64,000 nt of DNA, from NCBI RefSeq assembly GCF_019059575.1, contig NW_024881626.1, positions 620,001 to 684,000 on the forward strand. Reading direction: 5' to 3'. How positions within the stretch are numbered: the first letter of the stretch is position 1; every line of letters starts with the position of its first letter. The stretch is from Amphibalanus amphitrite. Taxonomy: Eukaryota > Arthropoda > Thecostraca > Balanomorpha > Balanidae. A program made the translations under genes and the position numbers. The notes under the pieces were generated by a model. The model saw only the letters and a list, made by a program, of their open reading frames with translations. It was not told the origin of the DNA and did no database searches. This document shows, piece by piece, positions 19,569 to 60,368 of this stretch.

Positions 19569-21343
19569 CCCGCGCCCCGCTGGGCTATTCAGCCATACGC
19601 GCCCTGCTGGGGGGGGGGGGGGGCAGATTCTGCCCCCCATCTAACTTCCGAACCGATGGTCGAAGAAAGACGAGGAAAACGGCAATCGAAAGCTCTCAAC
19701 ATGGCAGATCTTAAAAGCCCAATTTTTTTTGCTTAAGTAGGTCAGAGGTCAGGTCAAAGTCAGGTCAAGGGTACAGCAGATGTGGTCTACTATAGGACCA
19801 GGCGGGCTCCGCCGGCCTGTGGCGAAAACCTGAGTTGCCAAGCATTGGGCCAGAATCTGCGGGCGGCGGGAGGCGCTCCGCCCGCCCCTATGACCCATCC
19901 GGGCCAACCTGAGTACCGGTCCCACTTGAAAGGGACCGGTCGGCCGGCCTGGCGGGCGGAGCGCCGGCCTGTCGGGTCGGGTCGGCGCTCCCCTCGCCCG
20001 GACTGTGGTTAGGGGGCACCCCCGGAAAGATGATTTTCCGGGGGTGCGGGCGGGGGCTCGCGGCCCGTCTGGAGCGCCGGGGAGGCATCCACTAGATCTC
20101 TCAGGCCCGGGGAGATATCCCACAGCTCTCCCCGGGGCCGGGACGGCATACTCGTATGCCATGGAACGGCACCGGCCACCGTACAAAGTTAGGGAGGAGG
20201 CCGCAGGCTGGCGGAGCGCGTGTGGTCCAGCTGTAGTGGTCGGAAGGTCTGTCGGGGCGGTGGGGTTGCGCGTGGGATCTGGTGTGTGCGTGTGTTTATT
20301 TCGGTGAAGCTCTGTTTCGTTTTGTTTTGTTGAAGAGGTGCCTCGTAATAAGTTAATGCTTTTGCACCAATTCAACTTTATTTATGTCCATTGTCCATGC
20401 CCATAATCATAAATAAACGACAAACAAACAAACAAACGCAATGCAAGTTTCTACAGTATCGGCCTTGCACCGTAGTTGCCGAGGAATGGACTGAAACTGA
20501 TTGCCCACAACGTGTTCTTAGGCTACCAAGACAATATTCGTTGCATACAATATCATTCAAAGGTCAAGGTCAAGGTCAGGTCAGGTCAGGTCACCAAAAA
20601 CAAAATATAGAAAAGGGTATGTGCGACACATGTTTTATGGGCCATTTTATCCATAGAATTCGATAGGCACACTCAATAAGTGATATGGACCACCTCTGGA
20701 TGAATTTCAGGTCGAGGTCAGGTCAAGGTCAGGTCAAGTGAGGTCAAATTTTGAAGTTGGTTGTTAAGGCCTAAAAAGGTGTCTATCTGATGCAGTTTTT
20801 CACGGCGAATCGAATGGTGCTATTTTTGCTTCCGCAAGAGGTCTAGAAAATCCAAAAAAATCATTTTTCAAAATTTTTGTGTGTCGTGACGTCATAAAAT
20901 TTTGAAAAAATCCCACATTTTTGAACCGATTCTTCTAAAAATTGGTATGTAGGTGCACATAGACCACTTTTCTGACATATATTCCGATTTGTTTTTTCTC
21001 GATACACTCAAAATTATGGATTTTATAATTATTTCCCCAAAAAAGTCAGTTTTTGGAGGTAAAAAATTGGGCAAAATCCAGAATTTTCAAAAACCGAGAG
21101 AGCCATTTAATAGACAAGGTAGAATCACGTATAAACTTTTTTGTTATGTCTTGATTCTTTAAAAATGAAGATGTTAGCGGCGTTTTCCGATGGATTTTGC
21201 TCAAATTTTCAGGAAACGTCTTGAATTGATGTATGATAAGGTACTGAACGTTTGACGTCTCTGGCGTAACGCGTTTAGAAGTAATTGGCGACAAACGGAA
21301 GGGGGGGGCAGATTCTGCCCCCCAGCGCCCAGCGGGGCGCAGG
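19569..21343. mobile_element. TTAA-type element E (piggyBac-like ends)
   Basis: The left end CCCGCGCCCCGCTGGGC and the right end GCCCAGCGGGGCGCAGG are inverted repeats with one mismatch in 17. TTAA follows the right end, and the left flank is TTGA, a one-base variant. A poly-G run facing CCCCCC lies just inside each end. The interior has dense AGGTCA words (19740-19770, 20560-20600, 20710-20750). No transposase was seen. Confidence 0.65.
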
Positions 21344-21347
21344 TTAA

Positions 21348-23060
21348 CCCGCGCCAGGCCGGTGCTCCGAGATTCCGCGCCGGGCAGGGGGGGGGGGTGT
21401 CTGAACATCCCCCCTTCTAACTCGGCTCCTGGGCCACGTAGCGACACGCGATAAGCGGCAATCGAAAGAACGTCCAAAATAAGGACGAAAACACTACAGT
21501 CATTTTTGGGGTCAGGTCAAAGGTCAGGTCACCAGAGGTCACCAAAGGTAAAATGTTGACTATTTCAACATTTTGGAAACTGCCGACGGCTATCTCGAGA
21601 ACCGATAGAGATACAGCGCCGCGGAAAAGCGCATTCGATAGCCCTTTTACAGACCTTTCTGAATATTGCTCTCATATTTGACCTCAGGTCAACGATTTAG
21701 CCTCCAGAGGGCAAAAACTCCAAAAATAGCCGTTTTTAAGCAAAGCGTTTTTTCGGCAATAACAAAAGAGCCATGACATTACTTTTGCCAGCATCGTGTT
21801 CCTCTTGTCGAGACGCGTCGAATGAACAATAATTTGACCTTGAAATGTCAGCTTGAAAATTTGACCTCAGGTCAAAATGACCTGACCGGAAAAGGTCATG
21901 TTGCATATCAGTCGATCCGCAACGTCGAGCCGAGCACATCTAGGCGTTTTCCGCGCTCTGACACGCCTCTATCAGAAGTTATTAGCGAAAAACTGTTAGA
22001 TTCTGTTCGTGACCTGAGATGACCTCGGGGACATAACGAGAGGTCACAATTGCCATTTTCCGGTTCAGTGTGCCAATTCTACCTACATCTCGATGTTTGA
22101 GAGTGTCTAGAATAGCGTTCGTACAAAACAGACGCTTTTCAAATTTCTTCCATTGAATTTTTTAAACATTTATTTCGTTCATATACGCACATATGATGTA
22201 TAGGTATACGTACATCGTGAATCACATGTCACTCATGCATATGGATGCACATTGCAAATGCACATATTGGGCATGTAACAATGCGAGCGCACCAAACGTT
22301 CACAAACCTCGCCCCGCCCCGCATCGCCCCGCGAATCCCACATGTACAGCCCTCAGCAGACTGCGTAGTAGGTATTCTTTTTTCGACAAAACCGGTAATA
22401 GCTCAAAGATTATGTTATCAGTCGGTCGGAACTCACTGCAAGTATGGCGCCTCGCCATGCTCCACTCCTTCGATTGGGTCTATCACTAAACAAAGTAGAT
22501 GCCTTGTGTGGCAACAAAATGCAAAAGTTTGTTTTTGGGGCAAATATAAACTTTTGGGTTTTGTTGCCAAACTGGATGGAAAATGAGGACGATGGTAATG
22601 CCAATCCAAAGTGCGAAGTCTCCCGCGTCTTGCTGTTACGATTTCCAAGTGACCGATAGCATAGTATCCGCGTTATTCTCGGTTTTGGCGAAAAAAGAAT
22701 ACCTACCACGCAGTTTGCAGAGGGCTGTACATACTCGTTCTCGCTGGGGCGATGCCCCAGGCCGCCGGCCGGGCCCGCGACCCGTCACCCTGCTAGGGTG
22801 GCGAGCCGCGCGCCCGGCCGGCCGGTTTAGTGGAAAACAGGAGGTTGATTTTTCCCCATTGACTTGTCATGGGGAGGTCAAGAAATTGACCGGACCTTAG
22901 ATCATCGATATCAAAATTCAGAGATTTGCACATTGTAGCTATCAATGACCTCATTACATCCTACGACTTTCAAAGGCCTCCGTCATCTACTGTAGCTCTG
23001 ACACGGTGACAAAGTTGCAAAAAAGTGATTTGAGGTTGGGTCATTCGAAGTGACTTGGTG
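21348..23060. mobile_element. TTAA-type element F, right end unclear
   Basis: The element starts CCCGCGCC directly after the TTAA that ends element E. Its interior matches element B (32416-34295) over long stretches: the AGGTCA-rich block from 21500, the GGTCATGTTGCATATCAGTC block and the ATCATCGATATCAAAATTC block near 22900. The right terminus is not recognisable. Other sequence, including a MITE at 22347-22727, interrupts it. Confidence 0.5.
22347..22727. mobile_element. Tc1/mariner-type MITE, 381 bp
   Basis: Long imperfect inverted ends start CAGCCCTC-GCA-ACTGCGT and run on through GGTAGGTATTCTTTTTTCG, about 90 bp in all. Both ends are flanked by TA (22345-22346, 22728-22729). There is no coding capacity. 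Confidence 0.75.
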
Positions 23061-29759: not shown

Positions 29760-30190
29760 TTAAGGCTGAAACAGACTCTTTCCGCATCAATCGCTCGCTC
29801 GCATCGCTCGCACGACTCGGATCTGAAAATCGTATGTCCCGCAAACACTTCTCGCACGACTCGCTCGCCCGCATCACCCGCAGCTCTCGCATCGACTTTC
29901 GGCATCAATCGCACTGTCCGTACGGGAAGTATCAAGAACAATTTGGTAATAAATGTGTTCTTTACTTATACTATATAATACGTGTATTGTGTTCTTTTTT
30001 ATCAATAATCATCAAAAATAAGCCATATAAAATATCATGGTAATTAAAACACATTTTACAAATTTAAAACATGCATCTACCAGCGCAACGCATCAATAAA
30101 ATAATGCTTGTTGGTCACGTGCCATTATGAAAAACTAGCCAGTAAATAAAATAATGATGCAGACAGGCACAACCAGGGTATTTACCAGGG

Positions 30191-30370
30191 GCCGATTCGA
30201 GATGGCGCACTAGGAAGCTAGTAAGACTAGGCGGCCAAGTGACACTTGATGGTAGTGACACTAAGCGGCATTTTACACCAATCGGCTAGTGGCTCAGCGC
30301 AAACCGAAATCGTCTAGTGACACTTGAAATCAAGTGTCACTAGGGCCTTAGTGCGCCAACGCGAATCGGC
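30191..30370. mobile_element. Palindromic MITE, 180 bp
   Basis: The ends GCCGATTCGAGATGGCGCAC and, inverted, GCCGATTCGCGTTGGCGCAC pair, and an inner AGTGACACTTGA/TCAAGTGTCACT pair extends the fold. A target duplication could not be settled. Confidence 0.6.
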
Positions 30371-30522
30371 TGCAGGGCCTTGGGCATAAATATTGGTATT
30401 CATTGGCCATTGCTTATTATCGGATCAGTATAAGCAATATTTTTTTATATGTTTATTTACAATATTGCGCCCGTAGATTTGTTTGTGTCTAATTTTTAAG
30501 AAGACCTTCAATATAACGTACC

Positions 30523-33500
30523 ATGGCTCGAAGAAATCAGTTATTACAGCTTCGTTTGCTTCTCCTATGGCATCGTCTACGACGGTCTAGATATGAGCGA
30601 CAGCGTGAACAGGCGAGTACCTATCTGTAAAAACGTGCGGTCGAAATGTTTATTGTTACATGTGGTGGTAAGAACTGCCAAGTCGCCGTCCGACCATGTC
30701 CCCTTCGTAAGCCAGGCGCCCCAGTTGCGAGTTGATTACATTGATTTATACTATTTATACGACCCCTATACAGCATTGGGTCTATCATTCCCAACGGGGG
30801 GGGGGGGGGTAACTCATGCCGGGCCGGGGTGTTTCGCCACACCTTGCCATTTTCCGCAAATATCTTAAAATGGAGCGCAGCCATTTTGACACACCTTTTC
30901 TGCACCTACTGTGAAGAATTGAGACCAAGGCTGCTTCAGCTCAGGTCACCAGCTCACGTAACCTAAGAAGGGTTACCTAAGTAATGCTCACCATAGCTGC
31001 ACAGACGAAATGATCGCTTTTAAAACTTTCAGGTATTGAAAAGTGAATTACCTAATACCTACCTATGCGTAAAAAAGATATCCCGGATTTCGATATCGGA
31101 TAGCCAAGGTCAGGTCAATTTTGCAACCCTTCCATTACGAGTCAATGAGAGACAATTGAGATATGCTTCTTTAGGACGAAAGTCGTATTAAACACTCAAA
31201 CATCAGGTACCATTAAACATGACACATTGAATCGGAAAATGGTACCCACTGGCAGACATGTGCATGGATCCGATAAAATGGATCTGGGATCTGATCCCAC
31301 GGATCCTGATCTCGAATCCAACGGGATCATAGATCAAGCTCAGTAATTTATCGAGAGATCCGTAGGGATCACAGATCCGAGTCTCATTTTTTGCTTGAGA
31401 TCCAGTGAGATCATAGATCCTCACTTATTTTTTGTCAACACATATGTAAAAAAAAACACTTGTTTCAACTCACAAACGTTCTGTTTTAGTGATTTTATGT
31501 GATCGCACGTCATAATCCATAGTTATGTGCCACTTATTGGCATAAAAAAACCTTTAACACGCGCAGTGGAAGGGTTGCGAGTACTACGCCCAGTGGAAGG
31601 GGGGGGGGCGGATGTCGCCCCCCTAAGATCTCAGCTCCCACTGGAGCTAGAAAGACAAAATTTAGAGGGTAGGTGGGGGCCATGGGGAACTCTGTTGTGT
31701 GTGAATTTCATGACCCTAGGTCAATATCTTCAAGGTCAAATGAGGTCAAATGTGGTCAAATCTGCCATATGAGCGATTTTTTTTGCGTTTACACGCCGAT
31801 AACTCAAAAAGTTACTGGCCGATTTTCTTTTTTCTTTCACTATTCGAAAGAACAAACATTTGTGAGCATGTATGGTGAATTTCTAGATAATCCAACAATA
31901 AATATGGCAGTTAGAGGCCTGCTGAGGGTAAGATGTCGCCGGCTGAAGGGGGATCAGCCGACGCGGGAAACGCGGCAATCACAATTTTGTGTTTACACAC
32001 TCATAACTCAAGTTGTTACCGGCCGATTTTCAAAATTTTTTGACCATATGATTGCCCGTACATTTCTCAGTCTTCTCACCGAATTTGACGCGAATCTAAT
32101 GTAATCAGCGGTGAGGAGCGCGATGTAAAGACGGAACCGTCCCGCCCCGGCACAGTCTACAATTCAGGCGGCGCGTAACGGCTAGCGCCGGCGCGGCCGC
32201 CGCCCGCCGCGGCGGCAGGATGTTTGACTTTACACCGCTATTACTAGAAAAGTTGTGAACTGATTTTCATATTTCTTGCACGAGAAGTTCCGCAATTCAA
32301 TTCTGGACAGGTAGCCGAAATTTCACATTAATATTATGTTTGTGGCGCGAGTTATTGGCGAAAAACAGGAGGGGTGGGCGAAATCCGCCCCCCCCCCTTC
32401 CACTGCGCGTGTTAACCCGCGCCCAGCTGGGGGTCCTGGATTTCCACGCCATGCTGGGGGGGGGGGGTGTTTGAACACCCCCCCCCCCCTTGTAACTCGG
32501 CTCCTGGGCCACGTAGCGATACGCAGAAGGCGGCGTTCGAAAGAGCGTAAAAAAATAATGACGAAATCAGTTCGGTCAATTTTTTGGTCAGGTCAAAGGT
32601 CAGGTCACCAGAGGTCATTGAAGGCAAAATTTCGCCGATTTCCAGGTCGAATGTCGAAAATTTCCCAGAAGCCAATGCATAACTCGGGAACCAATAGAGC
32701 TACAGCGCCGCGGAAAAGTGCATTCGATAGCCCTATTAACGCCCTTTCTGAGTAATTATCTCAGATTTGACCTAACGTCAACGGTTTTGCCTGCAGGGGG
32801 CAAAAACTGCAAAAATAGCCGATTTTTTCGGAAACAGTTTTTCTGAAATAACTTTTGACCCAAGCCTTGTACGAGCTTACTTTCACCGGCATCGTGTTCC
32901 TCTCGTCAACACGCATCGAACGAACTATAACTTGACCTTGAAAGGTCAACTTGAAAATTTGACCTCAGGTCAAGGTCATGACCTGACCGGAAAGGGTCAT
33001 ATTGCATATCAGTCGATCCGTATCGTCGAGCTGAACATATATAAGGCGTTTTCATCGCTCTAGCATGCCTCTATCAAAAAGTTATTTGCGAAAAACGGTT
33101 AGATACCATTCGTGACCTAAGATGACCTCAGGGCATAAACAGGGGTCACGGACACCATTTTCATGTTCAGTGTGTCTAAACCACTTGTAATTCGGTGTTT
33201 GGGAGTGTTTATAATGTCCTCCGTCCAAAAGAGGCGCATTTCAATTTTCTCCCATTGACTTACCAGTATAGCGCCTTTTGGGGCGACTAACGGAGCGAGC
33301 GAGGGGGTGAGTCTTGCACGTGCGAAATTTCGAGGGGGTACCTCCAGCTGACTTGTGCACGGCACCCTACTGACCGGTTTCTAGCGATGTGCCAAATTTG
33401 AGCACAATCGGCCCAGCCGTTCTCGAGATCTGGGAGCGGCACCCTGCACGTGCGCACGTGCAAAATGGGTCCCAACTGACTTTTGCACGGCACCCTACTA

Positions 33501-36421
33501 ACTGGTCCCTAACCGTGTACCAAATTTGAGCGCCATCGGTCCAGCCGTTCTCGAGATCTGGAAACGACCCCTGCACGTGCGCACGTGCAGCAGCACCCCA
33601 ACTCTGGCACATGGATATGCAGTGCCTAGTGGGTGCCTACCTACATGCCAACTTTCAGCGCAATCGGCCAAGTAGTTACCGAGATATTGCAACAATTACA
33701 AAACTGACACCTCTTCGTTTTGCACGTGGCACGTGCATAAGGGGTCACCCACATGCATCGGGAATAGTCCAATACTTGGTAGAAGGAATGAAGCTACCCT
33801 ACAAAAATTACCGCGTGTAAATCGGTCAAGTGGTTGCTGAGATATAAGCCTCGCAAAAGCGTCCGCACGGCCGGCCGGCCGGCCGGCCGGCCGGCCGCTC
33901 ATACTCAGAAATTTCCGTTAATCTAAGGAAAGACTCCGCTCGCTTCGCTCGCTCCGTAATAATGGGGAGGTCGCAAAATTGACCTGACCTTAGGTCATCG
34001 ATATCAAAATTCTGAGATATACATTTTGTACATGCTATTGCTCTTAGCAATCGCTGAAAGTTTCAAAGCGATCGGTCACTCGGTGTAGCTATGACAGACA
34101 TTGAAACTTTTTATGAGGTGAGGTCACTTCAAGTGACCTGGTGACCTGACCTTGAATGACCTTGGTCTGAAATTTTCACAACATGTGTAGAATTGATGTA
34201 TGATAAGGTGTACCAAAAACCGTTTTTGAGATATTCGCGAAAAACCACAAGGGGGGGGGGGTGTTCAAACACCCCCCCCCCCAGCAGGGCGCGGGTTAAA
34301 ACATAGTTTCAACTGTGGTGCATGGTGGGATCCACTCAGATCATAGATCCATGTTCTCAATTTATCGTCAGATCATATGAGATCATAGATCCAAGATGTA
34401 TTTTTCACGCCGGATCCGGTGGGATCATAGACCCCAACCTGTAATTTGCTTCGAGATCCACTGAGATCATAGATTCATCACTCGGATCCATGCACATGTC
34501 TGCCCACTGGGCCACTACTAAAATTCATGCGTTTTTGGAGCTGTTTTGCCAGGCGTTCTTGCCAGTTTTCGGGGCGCTTCGCGCCGCCAATTCATACAAG
34601 TAAGAAAAGAGATACTGTGTCTAATAACGCCTTCACGCGGAAAGGACATGTGTATGCGTTACAAGTATTGCATACTGCATATAGGCCCAAAAAAGTAGGT
34701 ATGGCACCCGAAGGTTGTTTCTTCATTAGACAAACAGTATTCTTTAGAATTGTTTTTCTATTGAAAAACAAATAACCAACTTCTGGGTTTTTGGCCAGCC
34801 AATCCGTCTCCCTCCCGTTAAAAATTCGTGGCGACGCCCCTGTCATCATCCCCCCCCCCCCCAGCTGGGCGCGAGTTAACGCGACCCTAGGGCCTAGGTC
34901 GCATGTACAGTCTGTCTTAAAAGTACAGCGCAAAGTGACGGTGGATCCACCAAGCCTGACGGAGAAAGGGCCTGCTTTAATTTGAAAGTCACCGACCAAT
35001 TGACCTAGGAAATGGACGAGGATGTTAATTGCTTCGATGACCCAAATTTAGTAGGCCCTTCTTCAGTCAGGCTCGATGGATCCACCGTCACTTTGCGCGG
35101 TACTTTTAAGACAGACTGTACGTAATATAAATCCGAAACATACAAATTGTACGTGTCTACCTACACAATAAAGTTAAAGCAGTTCAAGCCAATCACGAAG
35201 AACGCGTTTTTTGTGGCGTATTGCGAGTTGTGACCCTCAGCCATCAAAGTTTCCACAACACCGCGTTACTTATTGTTGCAGGTGCGAGCAGCGCTGAGGC
35301 ACCGCAACACCCGCAGTGAATATTATCAGCTTCTGCTTGAGCTCAGACAGTCTGACCCTCAGCAATTTAGGAAGTACATGCGCATGTCACCTGAGCTGTT
35401 CGACGAGACTTTGACATCCATCCGACATCTCCTGACCAAAGACAACAGACGACGGACACCCATTTCCCCGGAAGAGCGCCTCGCCGTAACACTCAGGTTC
35501 TTGGCGACTGGAGACCAGATACCGTCCATCGCCCGCTCATTCCGGATGGGAACCAGCACCTGCAGGGACTGCATTTACCAGACCCTGGACGCCATCTGGA
35601 CCACGCTTGGTCCCATCCACATGTCCCATCCTATTGAGGACATGTGGAAAGACAGCGAAGAGGAGTTCCGCCTACGGTGGAATTTCCCAAACTGCATAGC
35701 TGCGGTAGACGGAAAGCACATTAACCTGATGTGTCCAAGGAACTCCGGCTCCACATACTTCAACTACAAGGGGCGGTTTTCGACTATCCTTTTGGCCGCC
35801 GTGGATGCCTTTTACTGTTTCCGGTGGATCTCGATCGGGAGTGCGGGCCGGGAGTCGGACGCCAGGGTGTTCATGACCTCAGATCTAGGGAAGGGACTCG
35901 AGGCAAACACTTTGGGCATACCGGGACCGAAAGCTCTGCCAGGAACAGAGGTCGTCGTACCACATGTCATGGTGGGCGATGAGGCCTTTCCCCTCAAGAC
36001 CTACATGATGCGCCCGTTCCCAGGTGCACAAGTATCCGACCAACAACAGGTCATCTTTAACTACAGACTGTCACGTGCCCGTCGCATCGTAGAAAATGCG
36101 TTTGGCATTCTTGCTCAACGATTCAGGTGCTTTCTGAAACCACTGCACATGGAGCCAGCTAACGCCATCCGCGTGGTGCGAGCAGCCTGTGTGCTACACA
36201 ATCTGCTTCGCCGTGACACCATGAGTGTAGGCGCAGAGCGCGTCATACCTGACGAGCCTGAGCCACTTCCTACCCTGTCAGCCTTTCAGCCTCTACACCA
36301 TCGCGTGGGTTCCAACAACCACTCTCAGGCAGCTGTGCACTGGCGCAATGTGTTTGCCAGCTACTTCCTTCACGAAGGGGCGGTGCCGTGGCAGAATAGC
36401 TACGCTGGTGTCAGAGAGTGA
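30523..36421 (+). CDS. PIF/Harbinger DDE transposase (two exons)
   Basis: The large exon 35282-36421 (379 residues) is a DDE_Tnp_4/HARBI1-type nuclease. The catalytic residues are visible: Asp in AAVDGKHINL (codon 35708), Asp in VMVGDEAFPL about 90 residues later, and Glu in RIVENAFGILAQRF 38 residues after that. The frame opens directly at a splice acceptor (TTGTTGCAG) with no ATG, so a 5' exon is needed. The best candidate is 30523-30612, starting ATGGCTCG and giving MARRNQLLQLRLLLLWHRLR plus ten more residues. This basic, Leu-rich start is typical of HARBI1-like proteins and ends in the right phase at ACAG|GCGAGT, a GC-AG intron of about 4.7 kb. The joined protein would be 409 residues. 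Family knowledge: the transposase cuts and joins DNA and needs its MADF/Myb partner for import and DNA binding. The large exon is certain; exon 1 is inferred. Confidence 0.88.
31558..32411. mobile_element. TTAA-type element A, 854 bp
   Basis: Inverted ends CACGCGCAGTGGAAGGG sit between TTAA at 31554-31557 and TTAA at 32412-32415. Poly-G/poly-C hairpins lie inside the ends, AGGTCA words follow the left hairpin, and no transposase is present. It is non-autonomous. Confidence 0.8.
32416..34295. mobile_element. TTAA-type element B, 1.88 kb
   Basis: The ends CCCGCGCCCAGCTGGGGG and, inverted, CCCGCGCCCTGCTGGGGG are flanked by TTAA (32412-32415 shared with element A, and 34296-34299). Each end has a poly-G/poly-C hairpin of the form Gn-TGTTTGAACA-Cn. 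The interior is AGGTCA-rich. A minus-strand R1 repeat (33291-33956) is inserted in it. Confidence 0.8.
33291..33956 (-). repeat. R1 repeat, minus-strand copy
   Basis: Ends CGGAGCGAGCGA...TCGCTCGCTCCG are flanked by TAA on both sides (33288-33290, 33957-33959). Internally it has a GGCCGGCCGG run and three related units of the form ATCTCGAGAACGGCTGG-CCGATT, separated by CACGTGCGCACGTG palindromes. The 3-bp TAA/TTA duplication and short inverted ends suggest a Harbinger-type MITE, which is an inference. Confidence 0.7.
34908..35118. mobile_element. Tc1/mariner-type MITE M1, 211 bp
   Basis: Inverted ends CAGTCTGTCTTAAAAGTAC extend for about 50 bp through AAGTGACGGTGGATCCA. They are flanked by TA (34906-34907, 35119-35120). 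The second copy of the same family, equal in length, is at 38140. Confidence 0.88.
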
Positions 36422-36769
36422 GTCAGTGACGCAGCCGTGCTTAGAGGGTTGGAACGCCCTGCCGTCCTTCCTCGCGCTGCGCCGATCCTCCGCCGTGGAG
36501 GCTGTGATGTCCGTGCGCCGTGTCGACTGTGTTCCTGTTGGGGCTGGGCTGTGATCGTGTCGCACCAAACTGCCGCGTCCGGACCTGTTGTGCATCAGCT
36601 GAAGGGCAATATACTCGACGTCATGGTGTTAAGAAAATCATCGCCTAACATTTCTACTAACATACCGTTACAAATTATTATTATGATCCCGGTAGCCGTC
36701 GGCCGTAGAGTCGAGATAAACATTAACGCACTTATATTGTGCAGCGAAGCAAACACAGGCGGAAACAAA

Positions 36770-37167
36770 CTAGCCTGGAAACATGTAAAACTCGAAAAAG
36801 TGAACCGAGGTCACCAAAGGTCAATGACCTGACCTGACCTTCAGGTGACCTTGACATCCACTCTAATGCATGGGAGCAACATCGAATCACATGTCTGAAC
36901 GTTTGAAACCACGAGAAGCTTGCAAACGCGCGGCAAATGTGAGCCGACATACGCCGAATCGCGATTCCGGTCAAACATGGGTTCGAGAAATAGGTCACAG
37001 GTCAAAGGTCACTTGGGTCAGGGTCATGAAATTTTCAGGGTAGGTGTAAAGTTGATCAATGCGAGGGTACTGAAAGTTTCGTCGCGATCAACCGCTTTTT
37101 GCGCGAGTTATTCGCGAAAAACCATGCGGAGGTCCATCCGACCCTCTACACATGCGAGGGTTAAGGT
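36770..37167. mobile_element. TTAA-type element, truncated copy related to element C
   Basis: From CTAGCCTGGAAACATGTAAA to ACACATGCGAGGGTTAA the sequence matches the right half of element C (43855-44267), including its TTAA flank. The left half and the poly-G run are missing. It lies between the two Harbinger genes. Confidence 0.7.
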
Positions 37168-37175
37168 GATAAAGA

Positions 37176-37210
37176 TGCAACGATTATAAAGATGCTTTAT
37201 AATCGTTGCA
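37176..37210. terminator. Perfect 16-bp stem, 3-base loop hairpin
   Basis: TGCAACGATTATAAAG and its exact complement are separated by ATG. It sits between the convergent transposase and MADF genes. A role in transcript ending is only a possibility. Confidence 0.5.
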
Positions 37211-37212
37211 AG

Positions 37213-37433
37213 AGCATAGCAGAACTCTGATCAATACACTGGTCTGCACGGCACCGGACAAAACAAAACTCAAAAGCATAGCAGATCTCTGATCAATACA
37301 CTGGTCTGCACGGCACCGGAAAAAAAAACTCAAACAGCACAGCCAATCCCTGATTAATGCACTGGTCTGCACGGTACCAGACAAAAAAAAAAAAAAACTC
37401 CAACACAGCCAAGCTCTCATCAAGCAACTGGTC
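37213..37433. repeat. Tandem repeat of about 62 bp, 3-4 copies
   Basis: The unit contains CATAGCAGA-CTCTGATCAATACACTGGTCTGCACGGCACCGGA (in pieces) and an A-run. The copies diverge toward the MADF stop codon at 37434, so the array forms the start of that gene's 3' UTR. Confidence 0.85.
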
Positions 37434-40400
37434 CTACTCCTGTCCTTCTGAAGGTGGGTAAGCGAGCGCTGTTAGCTCTGCCAACGCCTTCACCTTCCAG
37501 CGCGCACAGGCAGCCTCATCCATTTTGTCGAGGAGCTGAGAAGCGCTGCGCAAAAACGGTTCGTGCTTGTCGTTCTGCAGCTGCCGCACCTCAGCAACGG
37601 CATCGGCCACCTCCTGCTCAAGCCTGTCGGCGGCGGTAATCCGCCTCTTCTTCAGCGGCTGTCGTGCCTTCCGGCGCGGCGCGTCAGAAGGGGCGCCTAC
37701 CTGGGTGACGTTGTCTGGGTCGTCCGCTGTGGGCGGCAGACCGTCGCCGGTTGAGTCGTTGGTCTGGAGCTCCGATTCGAAAATGCTATCGAAGGAGTTC
37801 CCGGCCGTCGCCGCGGACTCGTCTGGCGTCAGCGGTGTAGCGCCGGGCTGCTGCAGGCTGGTGCACGTACTGCAACAGAGAACAGATGCGTCAACTAAAG
37901 AAGGATAACCTACCAGCTTTCTCAGACGATAAGTGTCCCTGCAGATGAATCGCTGATTTATCGATATAACAGTCGTGAACACTCCGACCAGCTATACCGT
38001 GCAGGAATCGTAGTGCTATCATAGGTAAAAACATCATATCCGTAACCGCTGGGGGAGCAGGGGGAGGCTGGCATCACGCTTGTGTAGAATTTTAAGAAAT
38101 GGCAATAATGGATCATAGCGCTCGTTTCATATCGGTGTACAGTCTGTCTTAAAAGTACCGCGCAAAGTGACGGTGGATCCATCAAGCCTGACCGATGAAG
38201 GACTGCCAAATTTGAGTCACCGAAGCAATGGACATCCTCGTCCATTCCCCAGCTCCATTGGTTCGGTGACTTTCAAATTATAGCAGGCCCTTCCTCGGTC
38301 AGGCTTGATGGATCCACCGTCACTTTGCGCGGTACTTTTAAGACAGACTGTACAAGTACACTTGACACGCTGACTGAACTGAAAAAACTGCACCCCTGAC
38401 CCTTCTTATGTTCCTGAGGCCATCTCAGGTAATGAAATGTTCCGAGCAGTTATGTGCAAATAACTTGATAGACATGCTAGAGCGATAATTACGAGCGAGC
38501 GAGCGCAGCGAGCGAAGCGAAGTCTTTTCAATATAACGGAAAAATCTCAGTATGAGCGGCCCGGCCCGGCCGGCCCGGCCTGTAACGCTTTTGAGAGGCT
38601 TATATCTCAGCAACCGCTGGACCGATTGGCCTGCGGTCTTTTTTGCTGGGTAGCCCATGCATCCCTTCTACCCCGTAATAGACTACTTTTGATGAGGTGC
38701 CCCCGAGGTCAATGAAATTGGAGTTCCTTCGACAAATTTGATAGGGCTTTCGAACGCCGTTTGATTTTTGCGGATCCGTCCAGTAGTTTCAGAGATACGA
38801 GGGGGGGGGGGGCAAAAAATAGCCCCCCCCCCCCCACCACCACCACGTCGCGTTATAAACAGACCCCACCAGGGCGCAGGTTAATCTGACCAAAAAATAA
38901 CCAGTGCTTATGTTATGATTTTTGACGTTCTTTCAAACACTGTTCACCGCGTGTCGCTACGTGGCTTAGGAGCCGAGTTTGGTAGGGGGGGGGGGTAACC
39001 GATACACCCCCTTCCCGGCCCAGCGCGGGTTAACGATACAAATTAATGCAGTGGATATACAAATTGAGGGAACAAAGCCAAACAGATATACTTACGTTTT
39101 AGCCTCCAGCACTGGATTGAGGAAGCTCAGGTACCTCATGTACCCCAGTTGGAGCGTAGTCAGCGGTGGAAGCGCAGCGCTGCCGCTGGGTGCCGCTCGG
39201 CTGTGGCGCAGCGAGCGATAATAATCGCGGATGTTGCGCCATCGCCTCTTTAACTCTTGCTCTGAAACAACAAGTTAATGCCAAATGAGATTGCCACTTT
39301 AAACTGTTGTCAGAGAGGTCAAGGGCGGTAACCAATACCTACAATACAATAAGGCAAATAATCAATCGACTTCAGAAGCGTGTCGACATAAGCATTTTTG
39401 AAATGTGATTGTGACACTCATCGTAATAAATAATATTTCTCACATTTTAGCGGGTTATTCAACCCGCGCACTGATGGATGTCTCAGCCAACTTCGGCCAT
39501 GATTACTAGGTGTGTGTGTGTGTGGGGGGGGGGGGGGGGCAGGGATATCTGGCCTCATACCGAGTAATCTCGGAGACTAAGAACTATAGATATCCAGCTT
39601 GCCCTGGTGACCTTATCTTATGTTACCCCCTTCTCCGCCCTCTCTCCCCTCCCCCCCCAACAGAAAAAATACGCATGTGTTACATACCATCCTTGTGCAG
39701 CTCTTCTGCTATTTCAGCCCACAGGTGTTGCTTTTGGATGGGCTTTAGACGATAGCCTTTGTCTCGTATGTCCCATAAAGCGATCCGCCGCTGCACCTGC
39801 TCTGCGAGCGCTATGTCCTCAGGACTGGAAACACAAGCGTACTTTAGTTATAGGTACAACAGTGAACAACCATCAGCCAAAAATTCTGCGAAAGGGAAAG
39901 AGCATGGAAAGGAGGAAGCACCAATTACCTAATTTTGAAAAAAAAAACATGAAAAGGCACAAGTAGGAATAGGCATAACAAAGTTCATTCATTACAAAAC
40001 CAGTTATCCATGCCTTGCTAGGCAAGATCCTTTTTCATAACGTAAATAAACAAGGTAGTGTTTCAGCTAGCGCTGAAAGTCAGTATACTGAAGTTTTTTT
40101 ATAACCTTTTCAGTTCACCTAGCTCGGTAGACGGTAGTTGCTAGGGTATTTCACCACCCGCCGTTTCCTGGGGGGGGGGGGGCATTAAAAGCCCCCAGCA
40201 CCAAAAAGAAGCACAACTTGCAATGCACTAAACAGACCTTGGACTTAGGATCTGGCATTTGGAATTTGATGTTCATAGCAAAAGAGGCTGATGCCTGACC
40301 TGCATTTGGTAGCAAAGTAGCGAGCTGACGACATAATAATCAATGACATAGTAAAACACAGGGGCGGATCCAAGGGGGGGGTCACATGGGTCATGGCCCC

Positions 40401-42410
40401 CCCCCTTGAGGCCCGGGGGCCCAAAGACCTTCCAGGGGCACCACCGGCCTATCAGGGGTATCACAGTCCTGACAGGGGCACCACAGGACCGCCAGGGGCA
40501 CCACAGGCCTAGCAGGGACACCACGGGCCTGGTGCCCCTGGGCCCTGACAGGACTGTAACGCCCCTGACAAGCCTGAAGTGTCCCAGGCAGGCACGTGGT
40601 GCCCCTGACAGGCCTGAGGCGCCCCTGCAAGGCCGGTGGTGCCCCTGGCAGGCCTGTGGTGTCCATGGCAGGCCTGTGGTGCCCCTGACAGGCTTGTAAT
40701 GCCCCTGGAAGGACTGTGGTGCCCCTGGGCCCTGACAAGCCTGAGGTGCCCCTGACAGGCCAGAGGTGCCCTTGCTAGGCCTGTGGTGCCCCTGGCAGGC
40801 CTCTGGTGCCCCTGACAGGCTTGCGGTGCCCTTGGAAGGACTGTGGTGTCCCTGGGCCCTGACAAGCCTGAGGTGCCCCTGACAGGCCCGTGGTGCCCTT
40901 GTTAGGCCTGTGGTGCCCCTGGCAGGCCTCTGGTGCCCTTGCTAGGCCGCTGGTGCCCCTGGCAGGCCTCTGGTGCCCCTGCGCCCGGAGAGGACTGGTG
41001 CCCCTGAAGAGTCTGAAGTGCCCCTCGGCAGGCCCGTCGTGCCCCTGACAGGCCCAAGGTGCCCCTGCGAGGCCGGTGGTGCCCCTGGCAGGCCTCTGGT
41101 GCCCCTGGCAGGTCTGTGGTGCCCCTGGCAGGTCTGTGGCGCCCCTGGCAGACCTGTGTTGACTGGTGCCCCTGCTAGGTCGCTGGTGCCCCTGGGCCTT
41201 GACAAGCCTGAGATGCCTGGCTATGACAGGCTCGTGGTGCCCCTGATAGACCAGTGGTGCCCTTGCTAGGCCTGTAGTGCCCCTGGCAGGCCTCTGGTGC
41301 CCCTGCTACCCCTGCGCCCTGAGAGGACTATGGTGCCCCTGAAAAGCCTGAAGTGCCTCTCGACAGGCCCGTGGTGCCCCTGGGCCCTGACAGGCCCAAG
41401 TTACCCCTGCGAGGTCGGTGGTGCTCCTGGCAGGCCTCTGGTGCCCCTGGCAGGTCTGTGGTGCCCCTGGCAGGCCTGTGTTGACTGGTGCCCCTGCTAG
41501 GCCGCTGGTGCCCCTCACAGGCCTGCGGTGCCCCTGGAAGGACTGTGGTGCCCCTGCCCCTAGGGGTGCTCATGGGCCCAACAGGCCCGTTGTGCCCCTG
41601 ACAGGCCTGTCATGTATACTTGCTAGACCTGTGCATGTGGTGCCCCTGCTTCCTGGCAGGCCTGTGGTGCCCCTGGCGGGCCTGTGGCGCCCCTACAAGG
41701 CCGTAGGTGCCCCTGACAGGTTTGTGGTGTCCCTGGAAGGACTTTGGTGCCCCTGACAAGCCTGAAGTGTCAAGGACAGACCCTTTAGACGCCAGGGTCA
41801 AGTTCGTCGGACTGACAACGATTTGCTTACCTGATAACGTTCCTGGTAAGTACTCATTACTCAGCGTCCACAACATATATACACATAGCACATTCATATA
41901 TACTTGCTTACAATTGGTAAATGTGGTTGTGGCTAAGAGGTAAGATACTGACTAAAAATAAAAAAATAAAAATAAAAAACCGAAAATGGGGGCACCACCA
42001 AAATGAAGTGGACGAAATCCGTTGAGTTTTTAATTTTGGGTATAGGTAGGGGCACCACTTCGATTCATGACCCTCCCCTTGGAGTTTTCCTGGATCCGCC
42101 CCTGGTAAAACATACAAGATATGCTCAGCCTGCATATTTTCTACACTGAGGTTCTTTAGGATGTCTGTGAAACGCCAAATTTTATGTCTGGGGAAGGTGT
42201 AAACTTTTTTTATACAGCACACAAAACATGGGTATCTAGCCATGTAAACATAGGTACATTGAATAAATGCAATTCTGATTCGGTACAATCAATCCACATA
42301 TTAAGCAATCAACGTCTATTCTTTCAGTAGGTGCTAGTAAATCAGGATAGCAAAACATGATTTGATTAGACTTGATAATCACTGACACTTGATTGTGATA
42401 CTCACTTCAT
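37434..42410 (-). CDS. MADF-domain DNA-binding protein of the Harbinger element
   Basis: Four minus-strand exons join in phase: 42410-42406 (ATGAA), 39824-39688, 39261-39096 and 37869-37434. They give 247 residues. All introns are GT-AG. The MADF domain spans about residues 8-100: EQVQRRIALWDIRDKGYRLK, HLWAEIAEELHKDEQELKRR, WRNIRDYYRSLRHSR and YMRYLSFLNPVL. A Pro/Ser/Thr-rich linker follows, then a basic stretch RRKARQPLKKRR (likely nuclear import signal), a coiled-coil-like helix and a BESS-like end FLRSASQLLDKMDEAACARW. In this superfamily such proteins recruit the transposase to the element ends. The frame has no stops. Intron 1 holds a complete hAT element, and intron 3 holds MITE M2 plus a partial R1/TTAA patch. 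The start codon split across the first intron is an inference; the other exons are clear. Confidence 0.88.
38140..38350. mobile_element. Tc1/mariner-type MITE M2, 211 bp
   Basis: It has the same ends and length as M1 (CAGTCTGTCTTAAAAGTACC), with TA at 38138-38139 and 38351-38352. It lies in MADF intron 3. Confidence 0.9.
38485..39035. repeat. Partial R1 repeat and TTAA-element ends
   Basis: 38487-38700 matches the start of R1 (GAGCGAGCGCAGCGAGCG, CAGTATGAGCGG, CTTATATCTCAGCAACC). Two poly-G/poly-C hairpins follow, with CAGGGCGCAGGTTAA (ends near 38883) and CAGCGCGGGTTAA (ends near 39033). These are right ends of TTAA-type elements whose left ends are not clear. All of it is in MADF intron 3. 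Confidence 0.55.
40359..42103. mobile_element. hAT element N2 with minisatellite core
   Basis: Inverted ends CAGGGGCGGATCC are flanked by the perfect 8-bp duplication GTAAAACA (40351-40358, 42104-42111). There is no transposase. Most of the interior is a 20-bp minisatellite. It is inserted in intron 1 of the Harbinger MADF gene. Confidence 0.93.
40433..41770. repeat. 20-bp minisatellite inside hAT N2
   Basis: About 60 variable copies of GGTGCCCCTGGCAGGCCTGT lie head-to-tail, with longer variants containing GGGCCCTGACA. Reading frames through it are repeat artefacts. Confidence 0.95.
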
Positions 42411-42908
42411 TTCGTCGCCCGCCCTTGTCCTCGGATCCGCTTCAAGTAGTCCACCACAGTAAAAAAAGATATATTTCTGTTACGATAAAATATGAAATGT
42501 AATAACAATAAACTTATAACAATGTCACATAGGTTAGTAAATGTCTACAACTCCACAACAACCTTGACAACAACTGCCGCATATACATAGGTCTTTGTTT
42601 ACATTCCAAGATGGCGGACGTGCTGCCCTCTGCAAAATCGCATCGCCCGCACGGAAAAGTTGACTGAACTTCAACTCTCTCGCATCCCGAAAAGATGTCG
42701 CTGCGGGCGATGCGAGCGAGAGGTGCGGGCGATGCTTGCGGGTGATGCGGGCGATGCGAGCGAGGCGTCAGGACGACGCGGGAAGACTCAGGGGCGGATC
42801 CAGGAATTTTCGAGAGGGGGGGCGGCAAGTCGAAATAGGGGCGACCTGGCAATCCGGGGGCGCTCCATACAAAGGGGGCGCCAAACCGTCAAAATCGGGA
42901 GCTAAAAG

Positions 42909-45017
42909 CCCGCGCCGTGCTAGGGGGCGTTATCGCGCTCCCCCTCAGGTTTTTTTCGCAAATATCTGAAAAACGGCTGCGCGCAGCGCCGCCATTTTCA
43001 GCATACCTTATCATGCATCTTTTTTGCACATGTTGTAAAAAATGTCTGACGCGGGTGATGGAAGGTCAGGTCACCAGGTTATGCCAAGTGACCTAGCCTA
43101 AGAAAAAGTTCAAATGCTTACCATTGCTATACCGACTGAACGATTGCTTTGAACCTTTCAGCGATTGATGAAAGCAACACTATTCATGAAATGTATATCT
43201 CGGAATTTCGATATCTGTGACCTAAGGTCAGGTCAGTTGTGCGACGGCTCCATTAGGTAGGTAGGTATAATTAAGTCTTTGGGAGAAAACTGAGAGGCAT
43301 CTCTTTTGGACGAGCGCCATTCTAGACAATATCAAGCATTGGGATACATATAAAATTAACCCTCGCATGTGTGCGGCGTTTTCCAGCTTCTAATGTGTAG
43401 GGGGGGGGGGGTCGGTTGGACCCCCCCCCCCTTGCCGTTTGGCCCCTGATCGAGCTAGAGCTTCGCGGAAAAAACGAGCGTGTTGCCCGTGACGAGAGGA
43501 AGCCGATGATACCAAATTTTAAGGTCCTAGGTCATTGGTTGACCTTCCAGGTCAGGTCAATGACCCAAAGTCGGGAAAATCGGGATCTATTAGAAAGTCG
43601 TAAAGTGTGGCTGCTAAGGGGTTTTTCGGGGTGCTGATCACGAAAATCGTGTTAGTTTTGATCACAGATGATGTCTTTAAGCATTTAGACCAGGTCAAGT
43701 CAGGTCAGGTCAGGTCAATCAGTAGGCGTCGTGACGGGTATTCGTTGTACGTGTCAACCGCCTCTGACAGCTTCGTAACATGTTACGAAGGCACCAAAAC
43801 TACTTCGTAAATGTTCAAATGGTTGCTAAATTCGAATTCAGCTCCAAAAACTAGCCTAGAAACATGTAAAACTCGAAAAAGTGAACCGAGGTCACCCAAG
43901 GTCACCCGAGGTCACCAAAGGTCAATGACCTGACCTGACCTTCAGGTGACCTTGACACACACCCTAATGCATGGGAGCAACATCAAATCACATGTTTGAA
44001 CGTTTGAAACCACGAAAAGCTTGCAAACGCGCGGCTAATGCGAGCCGACGTACGCCGAATCGCGATTCCGGCCAAACATGGTCTCGGAAAAGAGGTCACA
44101 GGTCAAAGGTCATTTGGGTCAGGGTCATAAAATTTTCAGGGTAGGTGTCAAATTGAAATGCGAGGGTATTGAAAGTTTCGTCGCGATCGGCCGCTTTTTA
44201 CGCGAGTTATTCGCGAAAAACCATGGGGGGGGGGTCCATCCGACCCCCCTACACATGCGAGGGTTAACACACTGAATAAGAACATTGCAGCTAGTGTGAC
44301 CACTCATTATGTCCCAGAGGTCATCCCATGTCATGAAAGGTCCGCAGCAGTTTTTTTTAATAACTTTTGATAGATTCAAGCTAGAGCGATAAAAACACCT
44401 CAGCTGTGTTCAGCTCGACGATACGCATCGACTGCTATGCAGCATGACCTTTCCCGGTCAGGTCATGACCTTGACCTGAGGTCAAATTCTTAAAACTACC
44501 CTTCATAAGGTCAACCTTTAGTTTGTTCGACGTGTCTCGACGACAGAAACGCAATGCTGGCAAACGTAATGTCGAGACTCTCTTGAGTCAAAAGTTATTG
44601 CAGGAAAACATTGTTCGTAAAAAGGCTATTTTTAGAGTTTTTTGCCCTCTGAAGGCTAAACCGTTGACCTGAGGTCAAATCTGAGCGCAGCTTTTGCAGA
44701 AACACCTTTAAAAGGGCTATCGAATGCGCTTTTCTGCGGCGCTATAGCTCTATTGGTTTCCGAGCTATGTGCCGCTGCTTCGAAAACGGAAAAATGTTGA
44801 AACAGGCAACACTTTACCTTTGATGACCTCTGGTGACCTGACATTCGACCTGACCTAAAAAATGACCGTTTTGTTTTCGTCCTGTTTTTTTGACGATCTT
44901 TCGAATGCCGCTTATCGCGTGTCACTACGCGGCCCAGGAGCCGAGTTAGACGAGGGAGTGTGCCCCCCCCCCTCCCCAGCAGGACACGGAAAGCTCAGAC
45001 CACCAGCACGGCACGGG
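42909..45017. mobile_element. TTAA-type element D (contains element C)
   Basis: The left end CCCGCGCCGTGCTAGGGGG and the right end CCAGCACGGCACGGG, inverted, are followed by TTAA at 45018. The left flank reads AAAG instead of TTAA, so that boundary is less sure. Its right half, read on the minus strand, matches the AGGTCA-rich core of elements B and F. Confidence 0.5.
43360..44263. mobile_element. TTAA-type element C, 904 bp
   Basis: Inverted ends CCCTCGCATGTGT...ACACATGCGAGGG lie between TTAA at 43356-43359 and 44264-44267. Long poly-G/poly-C hairpins (Gn-TCGGTTGGA-Cn and Gn-TCCATCCGA-Cn) sit just inside each end. AGGTCA words are dense at 43540-43720 and 43885-44130. It is non-autonomous. 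Confidence 0.82.
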
Positions 45018-45129
45018 TTAAAAGTCGTAGATGGGCACCGCTACCCTAGCAAAAGATATTAGCAAAAAGGTGACCTCCATTTACTGGTGCAGTCCTCCCT
45101 CCCTCCCCCTCCTTTTTCTGGAAGCGTCT

Positions 45130-46380
45130 CACTTATGCTGGTATGCCTCACTTCCCGGGGGCGCCCAACCTCTGCTTGGATCGCCGAATCCATTATGGAG
45201 AGACCCACTTTGCTTAAGTCGCCTCATTTCTTCCTTCTAAGAACGACCAATTTGCTGTAGGCGGCCCACTTATCTGGGACGCCCATCTTCTGCTAGAAGT
45301 GTCCCTCTTCTTCCTGATGCGTCCCACTTCTACTACGAGTGCACCTTTTCTGTTAGGGCGCCCCTTTGCTGCTGAGGAGTCTTTTCTACTGTGAATAGGG
45401 CGGCCCTCTCCTGTTTGGCGACCCCAAATTCTGCTGGAGGCGCCCCACTTCTGCCCAACTTTTGGTGGGGTGCCCCTCTCTTGCAGGGGGCACTTCTCTT
45501 TTGCTGGAGACGCCACTCTTGTGGGGGCGGCCTTCCGCTGCGGGGAACGTCTCTCTTCTGCCAGAGGCACCCCTTTTCTTCTTATGGGCTCCTGTTTTTT
45601 TTTTCTGGGGCGAGGCGACCCTCTGCTGCTCGGAACGGGGCACACCTCTCCTTTTACTGGGGCACCGCCCCTCTGCTGGGGTTGCCCTTCCGCTGTCGTC
45701 AGGGGCGCCCCTCTTGATAGAATATACTCCTTTTCTTTTTGTAATGGGGCGCCCCTCTTCTACCGGGGGCGCCCATCTGCTGCTGGGGCGTCTGTCTTCT
45801 GCCGGATATTGTCAATGGGGCGCCCATATCCTGTTTGGCGGGCCCAACCTCTGCTGGAGGCTGCCTATTTCTGATTAACTTTTGCTGTGGCGCCTCTCTT
45901 CTGCTGGGGCGCCCCTCTTCTGCTTGGGGCGCCCGTCTCCTACTGGAGACCCCTCTCTTCTGCTGGGGCGCCCCTCTTCTGCCAGTGGCACCCATTTTCT
46001 TATTATGGGGCTCCTTTTTTGCTGGGGCGCCCAGCTGCTGTCAGGGCGCCCCTCTTCTCGGAATGGGGGCGCCTCTCTCCTTTTGCTGGGGCGTCGCTCC
46101 TCTTCAGGGGGACACGTCTCCTGCTAAGGGTGCCCTTCCGCTGCCAGGGGCGCCCCTCTTGAACAGAAGGTATTTTATATTCTTGTAACGAGACGCCCTC
46201 TTCTGCTGGGGGCGCCCATCTGCTGCTGGGGCGACTCTCATCTGCTGGGAATAGGCGTCACTCTCCTGCTTGGTGAGCCCAACTTCTGCTGGAGGCGCCC
46301 TATTTCTGCTGAACCTTTGCTGTGTCGCCGCTCTTCTGCTCGGGGCGCCCTCTCTGCCGCGGGATATGGGCGCCTTTTTC
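45130..46380. repeat. 20-22-bp minisatellite inside hAT N3
   Basis: Variable copies of GGGCGCCCCTCTTCTGCTGG fill the right third of the element. The unit resembles that of N2 in its GG-GCCCCT core but is otherwise different. Confidence 0.9.
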
Positions 46381-46578
46381 GGATGGCGGGGGGGGGGGGG
46401 CGGCCGCCCCCGTCGCCCCCCCCTGGATCCGCGCCTGGGAAGACTGTCAGGGAGATACGATTTCCTGATGCGGGTAATGCGAGAGATGCGTGCGATCGAT
46501 GCGAGAGGAAACTAATGTATTTGAATAGGCTCTCGCATGCGATTTCCTGAACGCGGAAAGAGTCTGTTTCAGCCTTTA

Positions 46579-47195
46579 CGTAGAATAACGGAAATTTCTG
46601 AGTATGAGCGGCCGGCCGTGGTCACGCTTTTGCGAGGCTTATATCTCAGCAACCACTCGACCGATTTACATGCGGTAATTTTTGTGGGGTAGCTTCATTC
46701 CTTCTACCAAGTATTGGACTATTCCCGATGCATGTGGGTGACCCCTTATGCACGTGCCACGTGCAAAACGAAGAGGTGTCACTTTTGTAATTGTTGCAAT
46801 ATCTCGGTAACTACTTGGCCGATTGCGCTGAAAGTTGGCATGTAGGTAGGCACCCACTAGGCACTGCATATCCATGTGCCAGAGTTGGGGTGCTGCTGCA
46901 CGTGCGCACGTGCAGGGGTCGTTTCCAGATCTCGAGAACGGCTGGACCGATGGCGCTCAAATTTGGTACATGGTTAGGGACCGGTTAGTAGGGTGCCGTG
47001 CAAAAGTCAGTTGGGACCCATTTTGCACGTGCGCACGTGCAGGGTGCCGCTTCCAGATCTCGAGAACGGCTGGGCCGATTGTGCTCAAATTTGGCACATC
47101 GCTAGAGACCGGTTAGTAGGGTGCCGTGCACAAGTCAGCTGGAGGTACCCCCTCGAAATTTCGCACGTGCAAGGCTCACCCTCTCGCTCGCTCCG
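46579..47195 (+). repeat. R1 repeat, right piece of the copy split by Harbinger
   Basis: It begins CGTAGAATAACGGAAATTTC and ends CTCGCTCGCTCCG before TTA (47196-47198). Together with 29706-29759 it makes one full R1 of about 660 bp. Confidence 0.85.
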
Positions 47196-47224
47196 TTAGT
47201 CGCCCCAAAAGGCGCTATACTGGT

Positions 47225-47867
47225 TCCTTAGATTAACGGAAATTTCTGAGTATGAGCGGCCGGCCGGCCGGCCGGCCGGCCGGCCGGCCGTGGTCACGCT
47301 TTTGCGAGGCTTATATCTCAGCAACCACTTGACCGATTTACACGCGGTAATTTTTGTAGGGTAGCTTCATTCCTTCTACCAAGTATTGGACTATTCCCGA
47401 TGCATGTGGGTGACCCCTTATGCACGTGCCACGTGCAAAACGAAGAGGTGTCAGTTTTGTAATTGTTGCAATATCTCGGTAACTACTTGGCCGATTGCGC
47501 TGAAAGTTGGCATGTAGGTAGGCACCCACTAGGCACTGCATATACATGTGCCAGAGTTGGGGTGCTGCTGCACGTGCGCACGTGCAGGGGTCGTTTCCAG
47601 ATCTCGGGAACGGCTGGACCGATTGCGCTCAAATTTGGTACACGGTTAGGGACCGGTTAGTAGGGTGCCGTGCACAAGTCAGTTGGGACCCATTTTGCAC
47701 GTGCGCACGTGCAGGGTGCCGCTTCCAGATCTCGAGAACGGCTGGGCCAATTGTGCCCAAATTTGGCACATCGCTAGAGACTGGTTAGTAGGGTGCCGTG
47801 CACAAGTCAGTTGGAGGTACCCCCTCGCAATTTCGCACGTGCAAGGCCCACCCTCTCGCTCGCTCCG
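47225..47867 (+). repeat. R1 repeat, tandem second copy
   Basis: It lacks the first GGAGCGAGCG block but is otherwise complete, with a 30-bp GGCC run and the three CACGTGCGCACGTG palindromes. About 260 bp after it (47868-48125) also match the flank after the copy at 59372, so repeat and flank were duplicated together. Confidence 0.85.
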
Positions 47868-48129
47868 TTAGTCGCCGCAAAAGGCGTTATACTGGTGTTT
47901 AAGTTGGTAAGCTGTTAGAAACCGGTTAGATCGGTGGCTCCCACATTTTGCTCGGTCTCAACTATCACGTGCACACATGCACTGAGCAACACTAATTATT
48001 GAACTTGGTCTTTTGTCGACCCAAACGCTGCTTACAGGTTCATTGTTTCAGGTCCACTTGTGAGGAGTTCAACAAATTGGTCTGACCCGTGGCTACAGAC
48101 ATCAAATTGAGACGTGGGTAGGTACTGGG

Positions 48130-58810: not shown

Positions 58811-59371
58811 GTGATCTATGCTGAATGGTGTTCGCTGACCTTAATCTTATTTATTATGTCGATGTTGGCTATTTATGAATCATATAACTCATCATCGTGT
58901 TTTATTTCTCATGCAAAATACATTGTTTCATAATGATGCAAACATTTTGTATTCATCTGGGTGTTTATTCTAATAGGGACCTTTTGAAAAATAGACAATG
59001 GACATAGGAAACGGGTCATACGGGTGAATAATTCAGACAACATTCCATATGAACAATTACTGAGTCACTTTCAACTTGGTCCCGTCTTTGGGCTGTGAGC
59101 GCCCACCGGGAAACATGTTTCCGTGTGCGACAGTTGAGGTGCTACTATCTACACGTACACAGCGCAGAAACCGCTTTTGCATCAGAGCGAAGGACCGTTC
59201 ACAGCTCAAAGCCGACGACCACTATCACGGACCAGCTACATGGAACCAGCTCTTCAAACCAGGCACTGTCGCGGACCAGCTCAATGAAAACTTAGCTGGG
59301 GTGACACTGACCGCATGTGCACGAGCATTCGCCACTTCTCGTGGACCCAAGAACGGATGGGATGATTGTTA

Positions 59372-60031
59372 CGGAGCGAGCGAAGCGAGCGTAGTCTTTC
59401 CTTAGATTAACGGAAATTTCTGAGTATGAGCGGCCGGCCGGCCGGCCGTGGTCACGCTTTTGCGAGGCTTATATCTCAGCAACCACTTGACCGATTTACA
59501 CGCGGTAATTTTTGTAGGGTAGCTTCATTCCTTCTACCAAGTATTGGACTATTCCTGATGCATGTGGGTGACCCCTTATGCACGTGCCACGTGCAAAACG
59601 AAGAGGTGTCCGTTTTGTAATTGTTGCAATATCTCGGTAACTACTTGGCCGATTGCGCTGAAAGTTGGCATGTAGGTTAAGGTAGGCACCCACTAGGCAC
59701 TGCATATCCATATGCCAGAGTTGGGGTGCTGCTGTACGTGCGCACGTGCAGGGGCCGTTTCCAGATCTCGAGAACGGCTCGACCGATTGCGCTCAAATTT
59801 GGTACACAGTTAGGGACCGGTTAGTAGGGTGCCGTGCACAAGTCAGTTGGGACCCATTTTGCACGTGCGCACGTGCAGGGTGCCGCTTCCAGATCTCGAG
59901 AACGGCTGGGCCGATTGTGCCCAAATTTGGCACGTCGCTAGAGATCGGTTAGTAGGGTGCCGTGCACAAGTCAGTTGGAGGTACCCCCTCGCAATTTCGC
60001 ACGTGCAAGGCCCACCCTCTCGCTCGCTCCG
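59372..60031 (+). repeat. R1 repeat, uninterrupted copy
   Basis: It is complete, from CGGAGCGAGCGAAGCGAGCG to CTCGCTCGCTCCG, with TTA on both sides. It serves as the unoccupied comparison for the Harbinger insertion site. The flank to about 60260 matches 47868-48125. Confidence 0.85.
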
Positions 60032-60368
60032 TTAGTCGCCGCAAAAGGCGTTATACTGGTGTTTAAGTTGGTAAGCTGTTAGAAACCGGTTAGATCGGTG
60101 GCTCCCACATTTCGCACGGTCTCAACTATCACGTGCGCAATTACACTGAGGAAGACTTGCTTACGTTCCTTACAGGTCTAATGTTTCAGGTCCACTTATG
60201 AGGAGTTCAACAAATTGCTGTGACCCCAGGCTACAGGCATAAAATTGAGATATGGGTATATATTTCACATACTAACACTAGAATGATGCACAAACGGTCA
60301 AGTTTTGTAATGGCCTCGTATGACTTTGGATGAACTTGACAAAAGGCAGGTCATTTATAGTGTCTTAA

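Follow-up and report, generated by a model that had tools for sequence, protein, structure and literature searches.

According to a superfamily survey, about 93% of the terminal repeats of PIF/Harbinger transposons are shorter than 60 bp and their first base is usually A or G, while the candidate autonomous consensus sequences have a mean length of about 4124 bp and 88 families were reported with both ORFs intact (PMC4482050). These transposons are flanked by a 3-bp target duplication, and among those described in Medicago truncatula MtPH-M-2-IIa measures 21,696 bp between its ends and subfamily A6-4 presents 60-bp tandem repeats (PMC2213677). The MADF protein has been described as bringing the transposase to the nucleus (PMC9710019), and a fish MADF gene is said to come from Harbinger (PMC11893794). 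In yeast, one report indicates that excision of PIF/Pong/Harbinger elements declines as they become larger within 430-5,166 bp, and that a 7,126-bp element was lost on excision more often than 2,258-bp ones (PMC10288884).

In the window, by which we mean the whole stretch of 64,000 nucleotides that was analysed, a PIF/Harbinger element with a total length of 16.8 kb spans positions 29763-46575. Elements of this superfamily duplicate a TWA target, and the ends found here are the following:

29760-29762, no strand: TTA target duplication, left
29763-29785, + strand: left terminal inverted repeat, 23 bp
46553-46575, - strand: right terminal inverted repeat, 23 bp
46576-46578, no strand: TTA target duplication, right

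The two ends are identical at 23/23 bp and their first bases are AGG. A search of the whole window with the 23-bp end, allowing up to 3 mismatches, gave two matches, both being the element's own termini, so that no further copy was seen within the 64-kb window at this threshold; two matches were reached in none of 100 shuffles. No exact match of the 23-bp end was found in viral contigs. When the flanks of the element are joined they form a near-continuous copy of a repeat, R1, and the insertion is therefore real; the joined site is not letter-perfect compared to other R1 copies, as there is a 1-bp gap and two of the seven private substitutions of this copy (alignment columns 41 and 46) adjoin the site.

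Two genes in convergent orientation lie between the ends:

30523-30612, + strand: transposase exon 1, 30 codons, GC donor next; reading frame and splice phase only
35282-36421, + strand: transposase exon 2, carries D-D-E and the stop codon; Pfam match and frame
42406-42410, - strand: MADF exon 1, coding part ATGAA, 5 coding bases; splice phase only
39688-39824, - strand: MADF exon 2; gene model
39096-39261, - strand: MADF exon 3; gene model
37434-37869, - strand: MADF exon 4, stop included; gene model

In both genes, exon 1 is predicted from reading frame and splice sites. Together, the transposase exons encode 409 aa with no internal stops and are separated by a GC-AG intron of 4669 bp (30613-35281), whose GC donor (30613-30614) is apparently used. 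The protein matched DDE_Tnp_4 (PF13359) over profile positions 1-158 of 158 (E=1.2e-30) and Plant_tran (E=2.8e-7), and D173, D263 and E301 form its D-D-E, which we take to be the catalytic residues. No relatives of transposase exon 2 were found in viral contigs, where one stretch fitted a pattern and none was confirmed; a comparison with solved structures returned four sequences, the best at chance level (E 0.89), and a single-sequence fold of this exon had an unusable mean pLDDT of 35.4. The four MADF exons are joined by three GT-AG introns with consistent phases and encode 247 aa, matching PF10545 over profile positions 1-84 of 84 (E=2e-12).

With its DDE_Tnp_4-type transposase carrying D-D-E, its MADF second gene, its TTA duplication and its short terminal inverted repeats, the element is a two-gene, potentially autonomous arthropod PIF/Harbinger transposon, which is a known kind of element. 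The original prediction, which had pointed to perfect 23-bp ends with a TTA duplication, an open 379-residue transposase exon with D-D-E, a MADF gene of four phase-consistent exons and a Harbinger identity with later insertions nested inside, was right on all these points.

We infer 14 insertions in the element. Insert C possibly sits within B/E, which would then be the older of the two, and therefore eight or nine of the 14 are counted as direct, the remainder being nested within those. The clean inserts are C, D, H, J and K, and A, B/E, F and I are less clean, with approximate borders:

30188-30375, no strand: insert A, MITE-like, with inverted ends and an unclear target duplication, approximate borders
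30795-34879, no strand: insert B/E, probable TTAA-type repeat remnant(s), with a decayed left end and a right end at 34875 followed by TTAA
31253-34502, no strand: insert C, presumed hAT-type, perfect 8-bp duplication CCCACTGG
31558-32411, no strand: TTAA-bounded element nested in insert C
32416-34295, no strand: second TTAA-bounded element nested in insert C
33262-33963, - strand: nested copy of R1, within 32416-34295 of insert C
34906-35120, no strand: insert D, 215-bp MITE, TA ends
36767-37164, no strand: insert F, related to 43360-44263, truncated on the left and bounded by TTAA on the right
38138-38352, no strand: insert H, another copy of the MITE of insert D, 215 bp, TA ends
38490-39033, no strand: insert I, composite remnant of an R1-like piece and a TTAA-type right end, approximate borders
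40359-42104, no strand: insert J, presumed hAT-type, perfect 8-bp duplication GTAAAACA, 20-bp minisatellite
42789-46437, no strand: insert K, presumed hAT-type, perfect 8-bp duplication GGAAGACT, minisatellite and nested repeats
about 42909-45017: nested repeat in insert K
43360-44263: TTAA element inside this nested repeat

Insert B/E may be one element holding insert C, or two elements. We assigned inserts C, J and K to the hAT type from their ends and duplication, and the element at 32416-34295 is presumably piggyBac-like, given its ends and TTAA; no transposase was identified within the inserts. Both CAGGGGCGGATCC hAT-type inserts contain a long minisatellite with ~20-bp units, of unlike sequences (40433-41764; about 45080-46400). 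The motif AGGTCA/TGACCT, presumably nuclear-receptor half-site-like, is crowded at 15-23 per kb in five of seven TTAA-type stretches (21280-22159, 32416-33261, 36767-37160, 43360-44263, 44264-45017), with 3.5 and 6.6 per kb in the other two (31558-32411 and 30795-31250, respectively), and totals 185 in the window, against the 28.3 (sd 4.4) that ten first-order Markov sequences contained on average.

None of the 1974 coding bases falls within an insert. The insert-free element is 5753-6064 bp long, with a coding share of 33-34%, and with only the five clean inserts removed it is 7710 bp long, with a coding share of 26%; the earlier estimate of an original size of about 8 kb or less agrees with both figures. 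Likewise, the claim of at least eight insertions, all intronic or in non-coding ends, holds for the eight or nine direct ones, none of which touches coding sequence. The further proposal, that exon hits were purged by selection or that the genes had become useful to the host, is not needed. Coding sequence accounts for roughly one third of the element once the inserts are removed and is poor in TA and TTAA targets, harbouring 60 of 324 TA sites and 3 of 16 TTAA sites against 34% of the length. We placed D and H on TA, the TTAA-type inserts on TTAA and the rest at random (200,000 draws each). Under this site-aware placement the probability of no coding hit was 0.101 for eight events and 0.066 for nine, and 0.188 for the five clean inserts or 0.287 for four without C. 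When splice sites and the 25-bp ends also counted as hits, these values became 0.088, 0.057, 0.164 and 0.261, respectively, and a separate site-aware run gave 0.07-0.30 for the absence of coding hits. Uniform placement gave 0.228 for the five clean inserts, 0.035 for eight events and 0.020 for ten, the last two values being the most favourable to the selection reading. Since the element was noticed for being intact, and one with an exonic insertion would not have been singled out as such, selection cannot be deduced from these figures; with site-aware chances of 0.06-0.30, exon avoidance was rejected as its proof. Among the literature matches listed, none dealt with inserts avoiding the exons of a Harbinger element.

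The age of the landing was approached through R1, of which the window contains four good copies, namely the nested copy listed above and the first three of the following, together with a weaker fragment:

46576-47226, + strand: R1-host, right part, the copy in which Harbinger landed
47224-47896: R1-down
59365-60060: R1-far
38504-38694: weaker R1 fragment

Two of the copies stand head to tail (46576-47896). R1 had been considered a MITE similar to Harbinger and duplicating TAA, which was dropped, as the repeat extends further, up to a hairpin with CTGG|T after it, present in 4/4 good copies (33263-33289 on the - strand, 47197-47223, 47869-47895 and 60033-60059) and presumably a Helitron-like 3' end. 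Elsewhere in the window, a Chitin_bind_4 (cuticle-protein) domain was matched in one of the six window reading frames scanned (E=1.9e-9) and, together with the spliced genes, indicates an arthropod, and a weak RVT_1 match at 15142-15879 on the - strand (E=0.0033, below the curated cut-off) is perhaps a non-LTR remnant.

Over 647 columns shared by the four copies, private substitutions numbered seven in R1-host, nine in the nested copy, nine in R1-far and four in R1-down. All eight clean two-to-two columns group the nested copy with R1-host, and the ninth varying column has three states. The divergence of R1-host is thus 7/647 or 1.1%, with a Poisson range of 0.4-2.2% and an upper limit of 1.8% once the two private sites next to the insertion are left out (5/647). 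As Harbinger is younger than R1-host, its landing would date back no further than about 1.1% divergence (2.2% as the upper limit), barring gene conversion, which could mislead this clock of four R1 copies. With assumed indel:substitution ratios of 0.15-0.05, the chance that both genes would still be open under neutrality is 0.21-0.47 at 0.5% divergence, 0.035-0.19 at 1.08% and 0.001-0.035 at 2.2%, and neutrality of both genes after the landing is possible. Fourteen insertions within 1.1% divergence correspond to about 1.1 per kb per 1%, or 0.56 if the divergence is 2.2% (assumed mean length 11.4 kb). This is dense, and some insertions may therefore predate the last jump: either the locus may be very insertion-dense, or part of the load may have arrived with Harbinger.

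Taken together, it seems likely that a two-gene Harbinger landed here recently and that the inserts piled up afterwards, its exons being insert-free by chance and through the choice of an intact copy, with neither selection nor host use required. The mechanism would follow that of the superfamily, and the subterminal regions of the element may be part of it:

29763-29930, no strand: left subterminal region, 4 GATGCG/CGCATC motifs, motif chosen after looking
42621-42788, no strand: right subterminal region, inner part, with GATGCG motifs, 8 together with 46446-46575, motif chosen after looking

The motif occurs four times in the 168 bp of the left region and eight times in the 298 bp of the right one, compared to 19 times in 47.1 kb outside the element, and among 2000 first-order Markov copies of each end the left count was reached in a fraction of 0.0015 (3 copies) and the right one in none, for a motif that was picked after the sequence was read. 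By analogy these motifs are likely to be binding sites of the MADF protein, which would bind the GATGCG-rich subterminal regions and carry the DDE transposase into the nucleus, while the transposase would cut at the 23-bp ends and insert at TTA. A recent arrival in R1 would then have been followed by hAT-type, TA and TTAA elements piling up in the introns, the intergenic gap and the right end.

An alternative that we hold possible, although clearly less probable than later accumulation, is that the loaded element stayed mobile: some or all of the inserts would have been gained in ancestors elsewhere, only copies with intact genes and ends would have propagated, and the enlarged form would have jumped here. 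In its favour, the landing looks recent by R1-host, yet B/E, F and I have apparently lost one end, which takes time; in addition, 14 insertions after the landing would be dense, and chance would predict about two coding hits (1.96 for eight events, 2.30 for nine) where none is observed. On the other hand, the age figures of the inserts only set an upper bound and an end can be lost quickly, no second copy was seen in the window, and a size penalty on PIF/Pong/Harbinger excision has been described in yeast (PMC10288884). The corresponding idea, that Harbinger kept jumping as a two-gene autonomous element while kilobases of other transposons sat in its introns as in a cargo hold, with all or much of the 16.8-kb form moving as a unit, appears rather doubtful.

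Domestication of the transposase and MADF genes by the host after the insertions would be consistent with both reading frames being open, and insects have repeatedly co-domesticated this gene pair according to PMC9710019; there, however, absence of terminal repeats and target duplication is a criterion for domestication, while here both are present and perfect and the landing looks recent, which makes this explanation very improbable. That introns are actively preferred as landing sites beyond their base composition is the least credible explanation, since target composition and chance suffice to explain why every inferred direct insertion is non-coding.

The locus clearly illustrates how transposons become nested, its history can be read, and it may provide an active arthropod Harbinger. 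Should the inserts recur in other copies, it would mean that a two-gene DNA transposon can remain mobile after growing to two to three times its original size, despite the size penalty reported for yeast (PMC10288884). Like other two-ORF PIF/Harbinger elements (PHIS superfamily), it combines a DDE transposase with a Myb/SANT-like protein, here MADF, and short terminal repeats starting with A, but its 16.8 kb, and even its insert-free core of 5.8-6.1 kb, exceed the mean of about 4124 bp given for candidate autonomous consensus sequences (PMC4482050). The co-domesticated insect pairs APLG-APM and LPLG2-LPM2 similarly have transposase and MADF genes side by side; as described in PMC9710019, they are devoid of terminal repeats and target duplications, whereas this Harbinger has both intact. 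The M. truncatula elements MtPH-M-2-IIa and MtPH-A6-4-IIa have likewise been enlarged by nested insertions, which there comprise Gypsy-like retrotransposons plus an unidentified element that has 15-bp ends (PMC2213677), while the inserts in the present element are DNA-transposon-like.
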